From NCBI GenBank assembly GCA_002355455.1, contig AP017375.1, positions 4,517,640-4,581,639 on the forward strand: 64,000 bases of DNA, given 5' to 3'. The notes beneath the pieces are model-generated. The model had not been told where the DNA came from. It did no database searches and was given only the letters and a program-made list of their open reading frames with translations. A program made the position numbers and the translations under genes. Shown here piece after piece: positions 276 to 29,989 of the stretch (positions are counted from its first letter, which is position 1; each line of letters starts with the position of its first letter). This DNA comes from Stanieria sp. NIES-3757 (GTDB taxonomy: Bacteria; Cyanobacteriota; Cyanobacteriia; Cyanobacteriales; Xenococcaceae).

Positions 276-488
276 AAAACCAAGTTAATCGAATCTTCAT
301 TTTGATAGTAACTATTTTCAAGATTTAGTTAAATTTCGGCTTTAATCCAGTCATTTTTGATTTGATATGTCATATTAATAATAACTCTCTTGTTTAAAAC
401 TAAGTGATTTGACTTTATCAATTATAGTTAGAAAAAATATACATAACTAAACTGTAAAATAATTGTCAAACAAATGGTTTTTACCTTG

Positions 489-520
489 CTCATGGTCATG
501 ACTAGCCATGAGTTTTTTTT
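489..520 (+). terminator. Rho-independent terminator-like hairpin
   Basis: A perfect 7-bp stem (CTCATGG at 489-495 with CCATGAG at 506-512) encloses a 10-nt loop and runs directly into eight T residues (513-520). The form is that of an intrinsic terminator on the + strand. It separates the 3-275 gene from dndE. The rest of 276-676 is very AT-rich and I see nothing else in it. Confidence 0.6.
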
Positions 521-676
521 GTTTTAGGTGAAATTTAGGCTTGATAATGATTTATCAAATATTACTAAATATTACATAAAAAATACTAACACAAGCTAAA
601 ATCAGCCCAAATCTTGTCAAGAAGATTAATTAAAATGATAAAATCTCAAACACTTGGCTTCATTACTATTTAATCT

Positions 677-1102
677 ATGAATACATCAATAGAACGTGTT
701 CGTTTATCAACAACGGCTAAAGAACAACTGATAAAACTTAAACGTCTGACTAAAATTGAACAGTGGAATATTTTGTGTAGGTGGGCATTTTGTTATTCTT
801 TAGCTGAACCTAGTATTCCTACTTCTGTACCAATAAATTTAGATAGTAATGTGGAAATGACTTGGAATGTTTTTGGTGGAGAAATCGCAGATATTTTATT
901 ATTGGCTCTTAAAAAAAGATGCGATCGCGACGGTTTAGAGACAAATCAAGAAACTCTTAAAATGCAATTTATGTTGCATCTTCATCGAGGAATTAGTTAT
1001 TTAGCTGGTGAATTGGATTTTAAAAATATTGACGATTTAATTACTATGGCGGTTGAACCAACCCAAACTTTACAAACCGTTACTCAATTAGAATCTAATT
1101 AG
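677..1102 (+). CDS. dndE: DNA phosphorothioation-associated protein DndE
   Basis: This 141-residue protein matches the small DndE family throughout. The N-terminal part pairs RVRLSTTAKEQLIKLKR with an ILCRWAFCYSL helix. The middle has a WNVFGGEIADILLLAL segment, and the family-typical FMLHLHRGISYLAG stretch lies near residues 98-112. In known systems DndE is a small tetrameric protein that binds nicked duplex DNA. It is required, with DndC (sulfur transfer) and DndD (ATPase), to replace a non-bridging phosphate oxygen by sulfur. No dndB, dndC or dndD lies in the window: the upstream frame is unrelated and downstream genes are ordinary. It is therefore either the end of a cluster lying to the left or a solitary copy. 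The hairpin at 489-520 argues for its own promoter. Confidence 0.8.
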   Translation: MNTSIERVRLSTTAKEQLIKLKRLTKIEQWNILCRWAFCYSLAEPSIPTSVPINLDSNVEMTWNVFGGEIADILLLALKKRCDRDGLETNQETLKMQFMLHLHRGISYLAGELDFKNIDDLITMAVEPTQTLQTVTQLESN

Positions 1103-1199
1103 GACATAAACCATTACTTACTAATTCACTCCGAGTTTTGAGCGTCATTTTTTTATCTCACCAGCTAAGATAAAAATTAAAATTCTTTATCCTAAAACT

Positions 1200-1460
1200 A
1201 TGCCACGCTTAAATCTTCATAGTTTATCAATGCAAATAAGTCGGATGTTTGAGCAAGGACAATCTTTATTCTGTACGATTAAAGTTCAAGATTGGCTCAA
1301 AGAACGCAATTACGACCCTAACGAATACGATATTATTTTTCATCATAAACCTGCACCGCCAGAATCAGGCTTAATTCAAATGGTAGAAATTGAATTGCGT
1401 CGCAAGGATGGACAACCTGTAGATAGTTGGCTACAAACAGAAGTTAATCGTTATAGTTAA
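1200..1460 (+). CDS. Small uncharacterised cyanobacterial-type protein
   Basis: An 86-residue soluble protein starting at an ATG. It has a mixed alpha/beta character, with VQDWLKERNYDPNEYD followed by strands IIFHHKPAPPESGLIQMVEIELRR. I recognise no catalytic motif. It lies 97 bases after dndE on the same strand and could share its transcript, but its sequence gives no link to phosphorothioation. Start choice rests on the first ATG; no strong Shine-Dalgarno sequence is visible. Confidence 0.6.
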   Translation: MPRLNLHSLSMQISRMFEQGQSLFCTIKVQDWLKERNYDPNEYDIIFHHKPAPPESGLIQMVEIELRRKDGQPVDSWLQTEVNRYS

Positions 1461-1702
1461 GCTGAATTTGGGATAAGAAAAAGGACAGGTAGTAAGCTGA
1501 AAATAACGACTTTCTTCAGAAACCTGTTCTATAAGTCTTTATTACTAGCGTTTTTGACCTTAACTCATATTCTCAATATTGGGCAACTCATCATTATTCC
1601 TAATGTCACCAGCAGTCAAGAGCGAAGCCGAGGCACTTCGTGGTCGCTATTCAAATTAAAGGATGGTCTTTTTAGGTAAAAAGTTTTTTTTACTTTTAAT
1701 TT
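1461..1702. other. Intergenic stretch with imperfect inverted repeats
   Basis: GGACAGGT (1483-1490) and ACCTGTTC (1522-1529) form an imperfect 8-bp inverted repeat. Further on, near 1620-1648, AGCGAAG and CTTCGTGGTCGCT are partly self-complementary. The two genes on either side converge, so this may be termination structure or the worn remnant of a small repeat element. No reading frame of note is present. Confidence 0.35.
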
Positions 1703-4621
1703 TTAAATCCATAATTTTGTTGGTGCAATCGGTTCAATCTCTTCGTCCCAACCGCCGACTTGATTAGTCCGCAACAGCCATAAACAAGCACCGTGTTGAA
1801 GTAAGATTTCTGCTAATTGATCGTTAGCTAAACGAGGCAAAAGCGATCGCCAACTGGTTAAAGCACTAATAATTGTAGTTACTGGTTGTTCGGCGAGTCT
1901 AGTCCCAATCAAAGATTCGTAAGGGTCTAACCAATCGGAACGAACTGTTTGCCAAGGAACTAATTTTTTTTCTATGGCTTTGTACAATGCAATCAATCTT
2001 TCTAAGCGTTTGGTTTGAGGGTCTTCTGGATATGCTGCGATCCAGTTTTGAATCTCTTGGTTGCGTTTAATTTCCGTCAAAATCATTTTAATAGCTAAAT
2101 ATAGAGCCTGACAGGAATCTTGGACACAAGAGTTGGCAAGTCCTGCAAAGGTTGCGCCAGTTGCATCACCTGTGCGATAACGCGCCATCATTTTATCTAA
2201 TTGATAGGCTAAAGCATTAAGGGGAAAACGAACATTGCCACCGAAGTCATATTTTTCTAAGACATCTAGCTTAACAATGATATCGACTATCGGACGACTT
2301 CCCAACCAACCAAACTGGCGATCGCCTAAATAATTACTCCAGTCTAAGTTACCAGCAATAATACCATCGAGGTTTTGAGTATAAACTTGATCGTAAGTGA
2401 TTTTAAATCGCAGTTCTTGGGTAATCGGTTCGCGCATTACGGAAGCGATGCCAAAGGCGAAATGTCCAAAAAACAGACCTATTGGAGGAACTTCAGCTTT
2501 CTTTCCGCCAATTCCGCCATAAGTATGCAATAGTAACAAGCGATCGCCTTCTTGATATTGAGCAATTGCTTCGGTTTCGGGTAAAGAATTAGGATTCAGT
2601 AGAATCGAATCAATCTGACCTTTTTGCTGTTTAATATCCTGCCAATATTCGTTATGGATGTAATTGGTAGTAGTAGATAAACCTGAAATAAATCGTTTGG
2701 GTTTTAATTGAAATAACTCTCTAGGAGCGATCGCTCTTACAGTAAAAACTCCATCTTGATTGTATTCCCCATAAATATACCAACCAGTCGAGTTGACAGG
2801 AGAGTCTTCAATCTTATTATTAGTAGATGGAAATACCCCATTAAGATCGGGAATTACTTGAGGAAGATAAACATTTTCTTCTCGACCATCAAATTGTTGG
2901 GAAGTAGGATTATAGTGACGAACTCGAACATGATCTGACTGGTTTACCTTACCTAAAATAGTTACCAAACCATAAAAGCGACCAGTAATAACTGTGGGTT
3001 CTTTCTCAATATACAATGTAGGCTGTTTTCCTCTAGAAGCAACCTTTACTGGTTCTAAAGCAACAATAACATCATCAATTGGTCTAGCACCAACCAAAGA
3101 TTCCAAGGCATCAATCTCCCGCCAAAAATTCAAGCGAATAGGATGAACCAAACCCTCCTTCATACTTGCATAAGCTTGAGCAGAAAAATGAATGCTACAT
3201 TTAACTTGATTGAGATAGGCTTGTAGATCGGCGCGATCGCTCCAGCTTAAAATTACTTTTTGTCCGATCAAATCTTGATATTGTTTCGGCGCAAAATAAA
3301 CTTCTAAAAAAATTCCTTTAACCTGAGAACGTTCTTGAAGATCGGGTAAAATCAAACGACCGATCCAATTAGCCACAGGTTGATAACCAAATGGTACGGA
3401 TTGTTTAGTTGGATAATAAGTATATTGATTAAAAGCAGCTTGAAGATAACGTTCGTAATTACTTAGTTTTCTGGGTGTGTAAACTGTTTCGGGAACGCTA
3501 GCAGGAAAAAATTCAATCCCATCTTTGCGATGCAAAATCTTGGTAATAATTTCCACCGTCTGAGTTAAATAACTACGACCATCAGGAAGATAAGTTGTAT
3601 CATCTAGAGGACCGCCAATGGCATCATGTCGTACAGGGCCAAGAGAAATAAAACTGATTTCTCCCCGACTTTTAGCCAAATTCCAATTTGACCAAGAAAT
3701 AATCGACCATCTTTGGGGAAACAAACAAGGAACCAAACGAGCGACTAAATCTTTTTCTCCGACTAGATGATAAAGATGTTCTAATTTAACTACTTCTGTA
3801 TTACCACTCAAAACTCCAGCCAAAGAAATCACCTCTAAAGGTGCAGCCAAAACTTTTTTTAAATAAGGTACAGTTCCTAAAGCAACCTGTCCACCACCAC
3901 TGTAACCAATCAGCGTAACAGGAGTACCGCTTCCTGGTCGATAACCGCGATCGAGTAAACTATCAATAATGATTTGTGCTGTACCCCGATTAAAAATTGG
4001 ACCGTAGCGACTATCTACTGATACCGCTACCTGAAACATATTCCGCAACAAAATTAAAACCCCAAGTCCTGGGATTTTGCTTTGAATAACCCATCGCCAA
4101 AAAGCAGCTAGGGGTCTTCCGATAGTTAAAGGCAGATTAAAAACCGAATAAGGCATGATCTCGCGAATTAAAATAAACTCGCTGCCAACTGCTTCAGTTA
4201 ACCGTTCTAAAAATATTCCCACTCCAAAAGCATCTTCAAAGGAACTAATCCCAATGCCATCGAGATAAACTAGATAGTGGGTTGCACTTGCTTGATCTAT
4301 AGTAGATTGCGCTCTCGACGCAGCAAAGACTCGAAGCGATCTATAAGTTGTACTATTTCCTTTGAGTAGAGGTTGTTGTTTAGAGTCTTGATTATTACCA
4401 TACCATCCTGCCCACCAACCCAAAGCTTCAAAAGGAGCAAGTAAACCCGCAAAAGTCAGGGTTAACAAACCAATTCGGATTAGATCGAGACTGAGATAAA
4501 ACAATTGATTTTCCACAACTCGATACCAGCTTAACCACCAAACATTAATTGGAGAGAGAAAGACGATTAAACTTAAGGCTAAAAGAATTAAAACCCAACT
4601 TTTAAAAGATTGCTTGTTCAC
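1703..4621 (-). CDS. Large membrane-anchored alpha/beta-hydrolase-like protein
   Basis: A 972-residue protein. Two or three N-terminal hydrophobic segments (about residues 8-27, 40-63) anchor it. A region around 115-360 then looks like an alpha/beta-hydrolase core: a strand HYLVYLDGIG, a nucleophile-elbow-like GYSGGG at 239-244 with Ser241, and later LYHLVGEKD and GPVRHDAIGG, which could carry the acid and histidine. The remaining 600 residues are soluble and unassigned, and include a region with beta-rich character (about 430-640). I know similar large proteins only as conserved cyanobacterial hypotheticals. The hydrolase reading is an inference from the elbow motif, and no substrate can be named. 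It stands alone on the minus strand. Confidence 0.6.
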   Translation of the reverse strand: MNKQSFKSWVLILLALSLIVFLSPINVWWLSWYRVVENQLFYLSLDLIRIGLLTLTFAGLLAPFEALGWWAGWYGNNQDSKQQPLLKGNSTTYRSLRVFAASRAQSTIDQASATHYLVYLDGIGISSFEDAFGVGIFLERLTEAVGSEFILIREIMPYSVFNLPLTIGRPLAAFWRWVIQSKIPGLGVLILLRNMFQVAVSVDSRYGPIFNRGTAQIIIDSLLDRGYRPGSGTPVTLIGYSGGGQVALGTVPYLKKVLAAPLEVISLAGVLSGNTEVVKLEHLYHLVGEKDLVARLVPCLFPQRWSIISWSNWNLAKSRGEISFISLGPVRHDAIGGPLDDTTYLPDGRSYLTQTVEIITKILHRKDGIEFFPASVPETVYTPRKLSNYERYLQAAFNQYTYYPTKQSVPFGYQPVANWIGRLILPDLQERSQVKGIFLEVYFAPKQYQDLIGQKVILSWSDRADLQAYLNQVKCSIHFSAQAYASMKEGLVHPIRLNFWREIDALESLVGARPIDDVIVALEPVKVASRGKQPTLYIEKEPTVITGRFYGLVTILGKVNQSDHVRVRHYNPTSQQFDGREENVYLPQVIPDLNGVFPSTNNKIEDSPVNSTGWYIYGEYNQDGVFTVRAIAPRELFQLKPKRFISGLSTTTNYIHNEYWQDIKQQKGQIDSILLNPNSLPETEAIAQYQEGDRLLLLHTYGGIGGKKAEVPPIGLFFGHFAFGIASVMREPITQELRFKITYDQVYTQNLDGIIAGNLDWSNYLGDRQFGWLGSRPIVDIIVKLDVLEKYDFGGNVRFPLNALAYQLDKMMARYRTGDATGATFAGLANSCVQDSCQALYLAIKMILTEIKRNQEIQNWIAAYPEDPQTKRLERLIALYKAIEKKLVPWQTVRSDWLDPYESLIGTRLAEQPVTTIISALTSWRSLLPRLANDQLAEILLQHGACLWLLRTNQVGGWDEEIEPIAPTKLWI

Positions 4622-22034: not shown

Positions 22035-24125
22035 TTAAAGAACTAATTTTTTGATTGTTTCTAGCAAATCTGTTAATTGACTAATATTTTGATTTAACTG
22101 TATTGGTGCTTTGATATAGTTAGGATAACTTAGCTCTGTTCCATCTGGTAATTTTTTACTTACATAACTATTTTTAAAATCATTTTTACTAATAAAACCT
22201 CGGATTTCTAACCAACCAAGGTTTTCATTAAGATTAAGTTGAGCTAATTGTAGACCCGCTTTAATTGCTTGATATAAAAACGTTTCTTTAATATGGAGTT
22301 TGACTAACACGAATATTTCTCCTTCCCAGTCAATTTCATGCTGTGGAATTGCTAAGTAGTTACCGTTTGTAGATTTTAAAGATATATGATATTGCTGCGG
22401 AATATCATACATTTGATAATTTATAACTACTTGAGTAAAATCTCCAGCATCTCTTTTTGTATTAGAATCACTTACTTTAGAGTAGTCGACAGGGAATTCA
22501 ATATTATTTAAATTAGCAAGATATTTACTAAACCCATGCTCCGCTAGCTTGCCTCTGACTTCATCTTCAATTTTTCCAGTAAAGTTTCGCTGTCCTCTCA
22601 TTCCATGTTTTTTCGACCTATGAAGAACTTCATCATAATTTTCAATGACAATTTTAGCGTCATTATATTCTAAATCTATTGAATGCTTGTATATATTGAG
22701 AATATAGTTTTCTAAATCTCTTAATTGACAGCATACTCGATTTCGAGAACCCCTAACTCGTTGGAAAACTATTTCTGGTTGAATAGTTTCATCTCCTATT
22801 TTGAGGTTTTTTTTTCTTCTAAACTCTAAATCTTTTGGTTGAATATCTCTCTTGCATAACTCAAAAAATTTTAAAGCTTGATTTGGAGTTAAATAAGTAT
22901 TTTCATTGATAAATAATAGATCAGTTTCTTCGTTATTAATTGTGTTGACAAGATTATATTGTTGTTTAATTGTATTAGAAGCTGTATGTACACGACTACT
23001 GGGCATCATATCTTCTTCTTGGATCAGTTCTAGTATCTTTTCTGTTTTAACCGAATATTTTTCAAATACCAAAGGTAATTGCAACTGTTGATATTGATTC
23101 AACCCATTTTGATGAAAATTTGTCTGCGTACGCTTCCTCAAACCTTTGTGAAGTACGTTTTGTTTAGATTTAATATTAAAAATCGGTTTAAGTTCATCTG
23201 CTATAACTTTAATCGCCACAGGGGATACTGAATTACCTATTTGTCTGCGTACATCTGCTATCTTGCCGATAAATTTAAAATCATCTGGATAACCAAACAA
23301 ACGCGCTCTCTCTCGATTAGTTAAAGGTCTAGGTTCAGAGAAATGATATCCCCATGTTCCTCCACCTCCTGCTGCAATAATAGTAGTTGCAGGTTTGTTG
23401 CGATCTAATCTTCTATAGACATGAGAAATCATTCCTTTAACATAATAAGGAGAATCTTTAGGAATAGATTGAAAATTCCCGCCTTCAGGAATTAGCTCTA
23501 AAATCTTTGTGGTTTTAGGTCTAATTTTAAGAGTTTCATTATTATAAATTGCTTTTTCTACACCTCTTAAAGCTTCTCCAGCCGTAATATAATTATTATG
23601 AGTTGGTTGTGGTTTTTGATAATTAAAATCAATATCTTTTCTAATACCAATTATTAAAACTCTTTCTCTGAGTTGTGGCGTACCATAATCGGCAAAATTG
23701 TAAATATCTGCATTGATTTTATAACCACAATTTTCAAAATCTTCAATAATTTTTTGAATAGCTTTTCCTTTGTTTGCTGTTAACAACCCTCTAACATTTT
23801 CTGCTACAAAAAATAAAGGTTGTTTGAGAGCTACTGCTTTAACAAAATATTGATAAAGATTACCGCGATCGCTTTCAATTCCTTTTCGTTTCCAAATCAT
23901 AGAAAAATCCTGACAAGGAAAACCCCCTAAAATTACGTCACAATCGGGAATAGAAAAAAAATCTATTTGAGCAATATCAGCTTCAATAATATGATTGCCA
24001 ATATTTAATTTATATGTTTCACAAGCATAATGATCGATATCATTTGCCCAAACTACTTGATAGCCTGACCAAATAAATCCTAAATCCATTCCTCCACAAC
24101 CACTAAATAGTGAAACAATTTTCAT
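22035..24125 (-). CDS. DNA (cytosine-5) methyltransferase with a long C-terminal extension, possibly an R-M fusion
   Basis: 696 residues. Residues 1-312 are a complete C5 methyltransferase: motif I FSGCGGMDLG (7-16), motif IV GGFPCQDFS with catalytic Cys71, motif VI ENV (110-112), motif VIII QLRERV (151-156), a compact target-recognition region (about 195-265) and motifs IX-X (RERARLFGYPDDF, QIGNSVSP). A 380-residue extension follows. Its last part (about 515-650) reads like a PD-(D/E)XK nuclease: helix GKLAEHGFSKYL with Glu529, then GDF with Asp562, then HISLKST with Lys584. If so, modification and cleavage would sit in one chain. The nuclease assignment is inference; a target-binding or accessory domain is the alternative. 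No separate endonuclease gene is adjacent. Sequence recognised cannot be read. Confidence 0.85.
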   Translation of the reverse strand: MKIVSLFSGCGGMDLGFIWSGYQVVWANDIDHYACETYKLNIGNHIIEADIAQIDFFSIPDCDVILGGFPCQDFSMIWKRKGIESDRGNLYQYFVKAVALKQPLFFVAENVRGLLTANKGKAIQKIIEDFENCGYKINADIYNFADYGTPQLRERVLIIGIRKDIDFNYQKPQPTHNNYITAGEALRGVEKAIYNNETLKIRPKTTKILELIPEGGNFQSIPKDSPYYVKGMISHVYRRLDRNKPATTIIAAGGGGTWGYHFSEPRPLTNRERARLFGYPDDFKFIGKIADVRRQIGNSVSPVAIKVIADELKPIFNIKSKQNVLHKGLRKRTQTNFHQNGLNQYQQLQLPLVFEKYSVKTEKILELIQEEDMMPSSRVHTASNTIKQQYNLVNTINNEETDLLFINENTYLTPNQALKFFELCKRDIQPKDLEFRRKKNLKIGDETIQPEIVFQRVRGSRNRVCCQLRDLENYILNIYKHSIDLEYNDAKIVIENYDEVLHRSKKHGMRGQRNFTGKIEDEVRGKLAEHGFSKYLANLNNIEFPVDYSKVSDSNTKRDAGDFTQVVINYQMYDIPQQYHISLKSTNGNYLAIPQHEIDWEGEIFVLVKLHIKETFLYQAIKAGLQLAQLNLNENLGWLEIRGFISKNDFKNSYVSKKLPDGTELSYPNYIKAPIQLNQNISQLTDLLETIKKLVL

Positions 24126-26327: not shown

Positions 26328-27287
26328 ATGAATAATCTGTCTATTTTTGAAAAAAGTACATCAATTGAAACACAATTTAATCCAGAGCATCGGTTAGTAC
26401 TTTATCCAGGAAATGTTTACGAATTTTTAGCAACTATTCCTAACCAGTCTATTACCTTAATAGTTACTTCTCCTCCTTATAACTTAGGTAAAAATTATGA
26501 ACAACGCATCTCAATTCAAGATTATCTTCAACAACAAGAACCAATTATTGAGGAATTAACTAGAGTTTTAAAATCAGATGGTAGTATTTGTTGGCAAGTT
26601 GGTAATTATGTTGAACAAGGTGAAATTTTTCCTTTAGATATTTTTTATTATCAAATCTTTAAAAAATACAATTTTTTGCTCAAAAATAGAATTATCTGGC
26701 ATTTTGGACATGGACTGCACGCATCTAAAAAATTTTCTGGTCGTTACGAAACAATTCTTTGGTTTACTAAAAGCCAAAATTATATTTTCAATTTAGATGC
26801 AGTTAGAGTTCCTTCAAAATATCCAGGTAAACGTCACTATAAAGGAAAAAATAAAGGTAAACCTTCAGGTAACCCCCAAGGAAAAAATCCCTCAGATCTA
26901 TGGCAAATTGCTTTAGAAGAATGGTCAAAAGAAGTCTGGGAAATCCCCAATGTTAAATCAAATCATCCAGAGAAAACAATTCATCCATGTCAATATCCTG
27001 TCGAATTAGTCGAAAGATGCGTTTTAGCTTTAACTAATGAAAATGATTGGGTATTCGATCCTTTTGCTGGTGTTGGTTCATCTTTGATTGCTGCCCTTAA
27101 ACATAATCGTAAAGCAGTAGGTTGCGAAAAAGAACCACAATATTTAGAAATCGCTAAAGAACGAATTAATGCTTATTTTAGCGGTACGCTTATTACCAGA
27201 CCAATGGGAAAACCAGTTTATCAACCGACAGGAAAAGAAAAAATTAGTCAAGTTCCTGATGAATGGGAATTGAAAGAGATAAAATAA
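26328..27287 (+). CDS. Site-specific amino-methyltransferase (N4-cytosine or N6-adenine), solitary
   Basis: 319 residues of a beta-class methyltransferase. The catalytic motif IV is TSPPYNL (47-53) near the N-terminus, and the S-adenosylmethionine motif DPFAGVGSS is at 244-252 near the C-terminus, with CEKEPQYLEIAKERI after it. The segment between (about 125-220, basic, KGKNKGKPSG) is the likely target-recognition part. The S-P-P-Y form occurs in both N4-cytosine and N6-adenine enzymes, so the base cannot be decided. No endonuclease gene adjoins it, so it looks like an orphan methyltransferase of the kind used for genome-wide marking in cyanobacteria. Start is the first ATG. Confidence 0.88.
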   Translation: MNNLSIFEKSTSIETQFNPEHRLVLYPGNVYEFLATIPNQSITLIVTSPPYNLGKNYEQRISIQDYLQQQEPIIEELTRVLKSDGSICWQVGNYVEQGEIFPLDIFYYQIFKKYNFLLKNRIIWHFGHGLHASKKFSGRYETILWFTKSQNYIFNLDAVRVPSKYPGKRHYKGKNKGKPSGNPQGKNPSDLWQIALEEWSKEVWEIPNVKSNHPEKTIHPCQYPVELVERCVLALTNENDWVFDPFAGVGSSLIAALKHNRKAVGCEKEPQYLEIAKERINAYFSGTLITRPMGKPVYQPTGKEKISQVPDEWELKEIK

Positions 27288-27309: not shown

Positions 27310-27945
27310 TCACTGTTCACTGTAAACGCTTCCATCAGGCATAATTGCACCTGTCAAAATTGCTTTATTTAAATTTACCTGTTCTAAAGAAGCCTGAAAT
27401 AAATTCGCTTCTACCAAAAAAGCTCCTTCTAGATTTGCTCCTCTCAAGTCTGCTCCTGTTAAATCTGCATTGGTTAAATTTGCTTCTTGCAGATTTGCTT
27501 CCCACAAGATTGCATGACTTAAATTTGCACCTCGTAAAAATGTTCTTTGTAAAATAGCTCGGCTCAAAACTGCTCCCTGTAATTGAGCTTTCCCTAAAGA
27601 AGTTTTATATAAAAGTGCTTCCGTTAAATTAGCCTCTCTTAAATCAGCTTCAGTTAAAATTCCTTGACTCAAATTAACCAGTTGTAATGATACTCTGTGT
27701 AAAACCGCTTTTTCTAAATTCGTTCTGGTTAAATTAGCTTCAGTTAATATAGTTTGGCTGAGATTAGCTTCACACAGGATTGCTTTGCTTAAGTCAATTT
27801 CTCTACAATCTGCTCCTGTCAAATAAGCTTGACTCAAATCGATCGCTTGTAAGTCTACTCCTCGTAAAATCATCTGAGAAAGGTTAACTCCTCTAAAGTC
27901 TCTTTCCCCCATTGCATAACGTTTCAACAAATCTTCTGTGTTCAT
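27310..27945 (-). CDS. Pentapeptide-repeat protein
   Basis: 211 residues, about 30 successive A(N/D)Lxx-type pentapeptides (for example ANLSQ, ANLTR, ADLRE, ANLQE) covering residues 18-200. They are expected to form a right-handed four-sided beta-helix. There is no signal peptide and no membrane segment, so it is cytoplasmic. Repeats are abundant in cyanobacteria and mostly of unknown function; a few DNA-mimicking members bind gyrase. No such role can be claimed. It converges with the amino-methyltransferase, leaving 22 bases between the stops. Confidence 0.85.
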   Translation of the reverse strand: MNTEDLLKRYAMGERDFRGVNLSQMILRGVDLQAIDLSQAYLTGADCREIDLSKAILCEANLSQTILTEANLTRTNLEKAVLHRVSLQLVNLSQGILTEADLREANLTEALLYKTSLGKAQLQGAVLSRAILQRTFLRGANLSHAILWEANLQEANLTNADLTGADLRGANLEGAFLVEANLFQASLEQVNLNKAILTGAIMPDGSVYSEQ

Positions 27946-28150
27946 TCCTTTTATTATCTATTCAACATTCCTCCTTAATTTCGTTAATAAAATTTAACAA
28001 GAAAATTTAAGTATAAATACTTAATTAACATTTTATTAATGTTTTCTGTGCCAGTAGGTAAATTTAATATGACAAATTATTAAATTTTTAATCTAAATAT
28101 TAAAAAAGTATTAAATTAACAGAAAGAACAATAATTTAAATAACAAATCC

Positions 28151-29989
28151 TTGCCTAACTCCAACTCAAAAGCAAATCAAGAAATGCTTACTTTACAGAC
28201 TGAGAGAGAGAAATTGGTAGCAGCCATTGCTCTTCGGATTAGGCAGTCTCTAGATTTAGATGTTATTCTCAATCAAACAGTAGAAGAAGTTAGACAATTT
28301 TTACAAGCAGATCGAGTATTAATCTTTCGCTTTGAACCCGATTGGAGTGGACTGATAGTAGTAGAATCTTTGGTTTCACCTTGGCAAGCGGTTTTTGGTC
28401 AAAAAATTCATGACCCCTGTTTTACAAAAAATCATATTAAACAATATCAACAGGGAAGAGTTCAAGTCATAGAAAATATTTACGCTGCTAACTTATCTTC
28501 CTGTCACATTGATTTACTAGCTAGTCTTGAGGTAAAAGCCAACTTAGTTGTGCCGATTGTAGCAGAAGAAGAGTTATGGGGTTTGTTAATTGCCCAACAG
28601 TGTAGTGGTACTCGGAAATGGCATTTAGCTGAAGTCGAATTACTGAAACAATTAGCAATTCAAGTAGGAATTGCCATTCAACAAGCCGAACTCTACCAAC
28701 AAGTCCAAAGTTTCAATATTTACCTCGAAAGAAAAGTTAAGCAGCGCACCAGTCAACTACAACAAGCTTTACAGTTTGAAGCTTTAATTCGGCGAGTTAC
28801 AGAAAAAGTTAGAGACAGCTTTGATGAAGGACAAATTTTGCAAATTGTTACTCAAGAATTAGCAAAGGTTCTCAAGATTGAACGCTGCAAAATCGAACTT
28901 TACGATCCTCTTCAAGAAATAGCAACTATTGTTTATGAATATACAACCAGTTCTCTTACTTGCCAGGGTATAGTGAGACAAGTAGCCGATTTTCCAGAAT
29001 TATATCAACAACTTTTAGAGAAACAAACTTTACAATTTGTCGAAATAATTCCCGAACTCAGTCCGAAAAGAACCCAAGCTACCCGGCTGGTTTGTCCAAT
29101 TTTTGACGATCAAGGAATTTTAGGCAATCTTTGGTTATTGAAACCGAGAGAGCAAATATTTGATAAATTTGAAATTCGTTTGGTACAGCAAGTTGCCAAT
29201 CAATGCGCGATCGCTATTCGTCAGGCTCGACTTTATGAAACTGCTCAAACACAAGTACAGGAATTAGCAAAACTCAATAATCTTAAAGACGACTTTCTTA
29301 AAACTATTTCCCATGAATTACGTACTCCGATGAGTAGTATTTTGCTTGCTTCTCAAACTCTTGAAAAACTGATCGAGACTGGTCAGCAACAGAGAATTGA
29401 GTCTCGTATATTTAAGCAAGTGTTTAGAATTTTTAAAAACTCTTGTAAGCAACAAAATAAACTAGTTACCGATCTACTGACTCTTTGTTATATCGATGCC
29501 GATAACGTCACTTTGATGCCCGAATGGGTCGATCTCAAAGTTTGGCTTCCAACAATAGTAGAATCTTTCCGAGAACAAACTCAATATCACCAGCAACAGT
29601 TAATTATCAATCTCTTACCCGAATTACCTTTATTAGAATCCGATCTTTCTTTTTTAGAACGGATTGTCAACGAACTACTTAATAATGCTTGTAAGTACAC
29701 CCCTGCGGGAGAGACAATTATGGTTTCTGCTTGGGCGACACAAGATACACTTAGTTTAAGTTTTAGCAATTCTGGCATAGAAATTGCATCAGAAGAACAA
29801 AAATGCATCTTTGAAAAATTTTATCGGATTCCCAGTCACGATCCTTGGCAATATGGTGGAACTGGTATCGGATTAGCTTTAGTCAAGAAGTTGGTAGAAC
29901 TGTTAAGTGCAACTATTGAAGTTGAGAGTCACGCTAGCCAAACAACATTTACACTTCAATTTCCTTTAGAAGCCAAAAACCTAGCTTAA
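28151..29989 (+). CDS. Histidine kinase with a predicted DXCF-type cyanobacteriochrome GAF
   Basis: 612 residues from a TTG; an ATG at 28184 (residue 12) is an alternative start. Residues 20-185 are a GAF whose sequence fits bilin-binding cyanobacteriochromes: HDPCF at 87-91 (the DXCF motif, Cys90), SSCHIDLL with Cys118 next to His119, and KANLVVPI then LWGLLIAQQC. The two cysteines are 28 apart, the same spacing as in known DXCF photoreceptors. After a coiled coil (about 180-210) comes a second GAF (about 215-375) without these cysteines. HisKA follows with His388 in SHELRTP and HATPase with GGTGIGLALV. No membrane anchor. Expected to sense blue/green-range light and phosphorylate an unlinked regulator. 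Chromophore binding is a prediction. Confidence 0.85.
   Translation: MPNSNSKANQEMLTLQTEREKLVAAIALRIRQSLDLDVILNQTVEEVRQFLQADRVLIFRFEPDWSGLIVVESLVSPWQAVFGQKIHDPCFTKNHIKQYQQGRVQVIENIYAANLSSCHIDLLASLEVKANLVVPIVAEEELWGLLIAQQCSGTRKWHLAEVELLKQLAIQVGIAIQQAELYQQVQSFNIYLERKVKQRTSQLQQALQFEALIRRVTEKVRDSFDEGQILQIVTQELAKVLKIERCKIELYDPLQEIATIVYEYTTSSLTCQGIVRQVADFPELYQQLLEKQTLQFVEIIPELSPKRTQATRLVCPIFDDQGILGNLWLLKPREQIFDKFEIRLVQQVANQCAIAIRQARLYETAQTQVQELAKLNNLKDDFLKTISHELRTPMSSILLASQTLEKLIETGQQQRIESRIFKQVFRIFKNSCKQQNKLVTDLLTLCYIDADNVTLMPEWVDLKVWLPTIVESFREQTQYHQQQLIINLLPELPLLESDLSFLERIVNELLNNACKYTPAGETIMVSAWATQDTLSLSFSNSGIEIASEEQKCIFEKFYRIPSHDPWQYGGTGIGLALVKKLVELLSATIEVESHASQTTFTLQFPLEAKNLA

Follow-up and report, generated by a model that had tools for sequence, protein, structure and literature searches.

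A predicted dual-cysteine (DXCF) cyanobacteriochrome histidine kinase in Stanieria sp. NIES-3757

The described systems closest to the protein analyzed here are cyanobacteriochromes (CBCRs), photoreceptors that bind a bilin in a GAF domain. They include the blue/green DXCF protein TePixJ of Thermosynechococcus (3vv4, 4glq), the dual-sensor histidine kinase PPHK (6oap, 6oaq, 6ob8), and the extended red/green CBCRs (AnPixJg2 3w2z, NpR6012g4 6bhn, Slr1393g3 5dfx). Dual-Cys photochemistry of the kind predicted in this study is reported for Tlr0924 (SesA), another blue/green DXCF CBCR (PMC4067208, PMC4223177), and the photoproducts of DXCF domains reportedly range over green, teal, yellow and orange (PMC5240096). 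Here, we examined a gene in a 64,000-nucleotide stretch of the Stanieria sp. NIES-3757 genome (hereafter the window; Table 1), which had been proposed, from its sequence, to encode a DXCF cyanobacteriochrome histidine kinase. Alignment, predicted fold, tree placement and the bilin enzymes of the genome all support this original prediction, and the assignment of the first GAF domain (GAF1) as a predicted dual-Cys CBCR, an ordinary member of a known photoreceptor family, is well supported by sequence and model. A search for cyanobacteriochrome papers naming Stanieria found none.

Table 1. Features of the kinase locus, with positions in the window
Feature	Position	Strand	Basis and details
Predicted DXCF-type cyanobacteriochrome GAF1-GAF2-histidine kinase gene	28151..29989	+	612 aa, TTG start; ORF and Pfam
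GAF1, predicted bilin-binding sensor, residues 35-176	28253..28678	+	Pfam GAF, solved CBCR chains, AlphaFold2 model
DXCF motif D88-P89-C90-F91, C90 being the predicted second thioether Cys	28412..28423	+	Matches DPCF of TePixJ in the alignment
C118-H119, canonical bilin-anchoring Cys and following His	28502..28507	+	Aligned with C-H of TePixJ, AnPixJg2 and PPHK
GAF2, about residues 209-362 (borders approximate), predicted non-bilin relay/dimer domain	28775..29236	+	Second Pfam GAF stretch
HisKA dimerization/phosphoacceptor domain, residues 379-445, H388 in S-H-E-L-R-T-P	29285..29485	+	Pfam, E 3.3e-10
HATPase_c catalytic domain, residues 498-607	29642..29971	+	Pfam, E 2e-22
Pentapeptide-repeat protein, 211 aa, divergently transcribed, conserved neighbor	27310..27945	-	Pfam Pentapeptide, E 1.1e-62
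Shared intergenic region, 205 bp	27946..28150	.	Conserved AT-rich blocks TAAATAC.t.g.TTAA and AAAAARTATTAA, then the conserved TTG start

Gene structure and the kinase core

The reading frame contains a single stop, and a frame or coordinate error was ruled out, as both the frame and the motifs proved exact. The TTG codon is aligned in the upstream regions of all ten close-ortholog loci and is followed by similar codons and N-termini, so it is probably the true start of the kinase gene, with alternative starts further inside the frame being possible in a few of the ten. These loci represent nine organisms, because two of them (L012 and L030), with identical kinases, appear to be one. One genome in the family carries a kinase identical to that of Xenococcus sp. 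PCC 7305, in line with a cyanobacterium of Xenococcaceae type. An in-frame TAG seen in the relatives L032, L036 and L037 turned out to be the terminal stop just beyond the kinase domain.

Pfam recognizes two GAF stretches, the better one being GAF1, followed by HisKA and HATPase_c. The sensor had been expected to join the kinase core directly, and this part of the proposal has to be amended, since GAF2 sits between GAF1 and HisKA and the link is therefore indirect. GAF2 lacks both the DXCF motif and the canonical Cys, the aligned positions being occupied by VADF and by a gap, and it was thus ruled out as a second bilin domain.

The core carries what is expected of a sensor histidine kinase, i.e. 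the HisKA His motif and the N, G1 and G2 boxes of HATPase_c. H388, the N box (NELLNNACKY) and the G2 box (GGTGIGLALV) are intact, and the G1 box (29768-29785) reads N540-S-G-I-E-I, with Asn instead of the usual Asp. The variant N-[S/T/D/N]-G occurs in nearly all relatives of the GAF2-kinase core; of 11 other kinases sampled from the same genome and showing the pattern, ten have Asp and one has Asn. Judging from this distribution, the Asn is a family trait and not damage. We consequently describe the protein as a predicted sensor histidine kinase whose activity, in view of the G1 Asn, is not certain. NCBIfam models matched the kinase domain far under their cut-offs and none is applicable to the protein, including the HrmK hybrid kinase model (123 of 725 bits).

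The DXCF GAF1 domain and its predicted colors

GAF1 has homology to bilin-binding GAFs, a canonical Cys with a following His, and a second Cys within Asp-Xaa-Cys-Phe, the sequence hallmarks of a CBCR GAF and of the DXCF subfamily, respectively. The two cysteines, noted originally as Cys90 in HDPCF and Cys118 in SSCHIDLL, lie at the TePixJ spacing of exactly 28 residues, and in the alignment that had been suggested as a check they fall on the two thioether cysteines of that protein; the flanking stretches KANLVVPI and LWGLLIA were also found as quoted. The best PDB sequence matches of GAF1 are all bilin-binding CBCRs, i.e. PPHK (6oap, E 1e-50), miRFP670nano (6mgh, 4.9e-41), NpR6012g4 (6bhn, 1.4e-38), AnPixJg2 (3w2z, 7.9e-35) and TePixJ (3vv4, 3.2e-33), and both cysteines and their spacing are retained in orthologs as distant as about 42% identity. 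These matches, together with the conservation in distant orthologs, argue that the Cys motif is not a chance occurrence. An AlphaFold2 model of GAF1, built from 29 aligned sequences (mean pLDDT 91.2), superimposes on PPHK 6oap with Z 27.0 (1.5 A over 169 residues), on AnPixJg2 3w2z with Z 26.6, and on TePixJ 4glq with Z 23.3 (2.0 A over 149 residues). Since phytochrome GAFs also score Z above 22 against the model, the fold by itself is no proof of bilin binding.

To place GAF1, a tree was built from 68 GAF domains, namely orthologs, domains from the same genome, six solved references and GAF2. TePixJ is the sole characterized DXCF reference among them, Tlr0924, Tlr1999 and NpR1597g1 being absent. 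GAF1 branches within the CBCRs, as part of a starred clade (95/91) of 16 rows, all of which retain both cysteines, with DPCL in two rows and DDCF in one. Placement among non-chromophorylated GAFs would have spoken against a photosensor; instead, the Cys-less relatives (L047, L048, L053, L055 and L057) form a starred clade of their own, apart from GAF1, and membership in that clade is ruled out. An extended red/green type was also ruled out, as GAF1 has I86-H-D-P-C-F instead of W-x-D-x-x-L and belongs to a separate clade. The larger group around GAF1 holds PPHK and miRFP670nano, both single-Cys proteins, with moderate support (82/95). TePixJ clusters outside this group with GAFs of the Stanieria genome (L006/L080), and the search of the 16-row clade for a characterized DXCF domain, with TePixJ as the only such reference in the tree, found none. 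By its residues GAF1 is thus TePixJ-like, yet the tree does not support a TePixJ lineage. L006, just outside the window (G000:C1, about 4495200-4497400), contains a frame of 908 aa in which two GAFs carry DPCF and group with TePixJ and a third is Cys-less; this protein is likely the PixJ of the genome.

In order to consider the colors, published pocket positions were transferred to GAF1 through the NpR6012g4 sequence. The three positions whose mutation alters phycocyanobilin-to-phycoviolobilin isomerization (PMC11284453) are I86, P89 and I147 in GAF1 and I, P and I in TePixJ, and the beta2 and helix-4 positions at which Phe has been linked to photocycles of the trapped-twist, red/green and teal kinds (PMC5240096) are both non-Phe, being I69 and L126 in GAF1 and V and L in TePixJ. 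Over all eight mapped pocket positions, GAF1 (I-I-P-C-C-H-L-I) equals TePixJ (V-I-P-C-C-H-L-I) at seven, with Ile for Val at the remaining one. The beta2 position is tentatively taken to be I69, by a numbering that was checked for internal consistency. GAF1 accordingly has the residues expected of phycoviolobilin and of a green and not a teal photoproduct, an expectation resting on correlation with one characterized DXCF protein, and the agreement at seven of eight positions makes blue/green with phycoviolobilin our best guess for the color pair. As GAF1 lies outside the TePixJ clade, we infer rather than read off the exact colors, and the blue/green type proposed at the outset therefore stands with regard to pocket residues and not with regard to lineage. 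At helix-4 position 126, Phe is found in eight of the nine other close orthologs, against Leu in our protein, and a Tyr directly follows the anchor Cys in four of the nine, differences which suggest that colors may vary between members of this ortholog group.

Interchangeable inputs, bilin supply and gene neighborhood

Relatives share the GAF2-kinase core (residues 190-612) at 45-91% identity and combine it with inputs as different as DXCF GAFs, canonical-Cys-only GAFs, Cys-less GAFs and receiver domains. In the proteins L014-L021 a receiver domain precedes the same GAF-kinase core, which is 48-57% identical to that of our protein, and in an unrooted core tree of 41 rows these receiver-bearing cores (8 rows) adjoin the DXCF group. 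The tree requires six input-state changes, indicating that the input module has been swapped or degraded several times, the unrooted tree being compatible with either direction of change.

In the whole genome (5.46 Mb, two contigs), heme oxygenase is represented by two genes that exceed the family cut-off, and ferredoxin-dependent bilin reductase by four. One reductase gene, PcyA-like, lies directly upstream of a PAS/GAF kinase gene, which is followed by a receiver protein (L065, G000:C1:2233800-2238000, at 407-3471 on the minus strand); the kinase carries an E-E-V-F...C-L motif, as in green/red RcaE/CcaS-type sensors, and the locus would place pigment synthesis beside a predicted light sensor. 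Two bilin reductase genes are situated side by side (L081, G000:C1:124800-127000) and are perhaps pebA and pebB, a pair that suggests synthesis of phycoerythrobilin.

The gene for the pentapeptide-repeat protein is head-to-head with the kinase gene in 10/10 close-ortholog loci, and the conserved blocks of the region between them were recognized in a MAFFT alignment of the ten intergenic regions. A sigma-70 promoter scan of this region (27946-28150) gave matches not above those in shuffles, and a literature search combining cyanobacteriochrome and pentapeptide found nothing related. No ORF from 24 to 35 kb of the window encodes a response regulator, and the kinase is therefore regarded as an orphan; its neighbors in this interval include two DNA methyltransferases, the pentapeptide-repeat gene, CobD/CbiB and an AbrB-like regulator. 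A protein that resembles cytosine methyltransferases and has a long extension at its C terminus (22035-24125, minus strand) and a nearby N6/N4 DNA methylase (26328-27287, plus strand) are possibly the remains of a restriction-modification locus.

Proposed signaling and comparison with described systems

We consider it likely, from sequence and model together, that the protein is a soluble dual-Cys DXCF CBCR histidine kinase with a phycoviolobilin-bearing blue/green GAF1 that signals via GAF2. For this protein we infer bilin attachment, phycoviolobilin, blue/green colors, kinase activity and a partner in the following scheme. GAF1 would bind phycocyanobilin, most likely through C118, and isomerize it to phycoviolobilin. 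In the dark, C90 would form a second thioether to bilin C10, giving a blue-absorbing state, and blue light would flip the 15,16 double bond, upon which the C90 bond would break and a green-absorbing state would appear. The change would then travel along the exit helix of GAF1 and across GAF2, a domain devoid of bilin motifs, to the HisKA/HATPase core, where it would alter the phosphorylation of H388 and the onward phosphotransfer to an unlinked response regulator.

Counting against this scheme are the position of GAF1 outside the TePixJ clade and next to single-Cys solved neighbors, the Phe at position 126 in most orthologs, and N540. The first two bear on color. A dual-Cys CBCR in which both thioethers form could keep phycocyanobilin (blue/orange-like) or reach a teal/yellow photoproduct, and this would agree with a lineage different from that of TePixJ, with the spread of photoproducts from green to orange reported for DXCF domains (PMC5240096), and with a clade in which no characterized DXCF domain was found; all three phycoviolobilin-related and both Phe-tuning positions are nevertheless of the TePixJ class, and we regard such other colors as unlikely while granting them some weight. 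N540 bears on output, in that a working photosensor might feed a protein acting mainly as a phosphatase or as the partner of another kinase. The G1 Asn, family-wide in the form N-[S/T]-G-x-E-I and set against Asp in most sampled kinases of the genome, would suit this idea, which we nonetheless judge improbable, considering that H388 and the N and G2 boxes are intact, that one of the sampled kinases has the same Asn, and that conservation of the variant favors a functional form.

The least probable of the alternatives, in our view hardly credible, is that GAF1 is of CBCR descent but no longer a photosensor (with no bilin or no photoconversion), and that the kinase is driven by other input. Loss does occur in the family, as relatives of the same protein lack one or both cysteines, and GAF2 could carry another signal, but retention of both cysteines, Asp88, His119 and the pocket residues over deep divergence makes disuse unlikely.

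Alongside the preferred blue/green kinase, we tentatively put forward a wider and rather doubtful picture, in which this DXCF lineage arose apart from PixJ, the kinase and its pentapeptide-repeat partner form one light-controlled unit, the photosensory GAF sits on a core that takes receiver or other inputs elsewhere, and the photocycle could differ from blue/green. While the general view of cyanobacteriochrome function is unchanged by this protein, it adds a clearly delimited, apparently uncharacterized group of kinase-tied dual-Cys light sensors. Close orthologs occur throughout the family, next to a gene neighbor that is conserved, and the group thus offers a natural series for testing color tuning, where position 126 is Leu or Phe and the anchor Cys is followed by His or Tyr, as well as input exchange, where a single kinase core is combined with light-sensing, receiver or Cys-less GAF modules.

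PPHK is the solved protein closest to GAF1 by both sequence and fold; it too combines a CBCR GAF with a histidine kinase, and its GAF and exit helix closely resemble those of our protein. It has D-Q-Y-F and lacks the second Cys where GAF1 has DPCF, and, unlike our protein, it carries a receiver-like domain ahead of the GAF and shows no intervening second GAF in the solved construct. TePixJ resembles GAF1 in DPCF, the C-H pair, the 28-residue spacing, seven of eight pocket residues and fold; however, it is annotated as a methyl-accepting chemotaxis protein (phototaxis), whereas the present protein is a predicted kinase, and at 34-37% identity it belongs to a different clade together with the PixJ-like L006. 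The output of Tlr0924 is a cyclase, as opposed to the kinase predicted here. The extended red/green CBCRs share the domain family and the canonical Cys with GAF1, but have W-x-D-x-x-L, Phe at both tuning positions and a clade of their own, in contrast to the I-x-D-P-C-F of GAF1.
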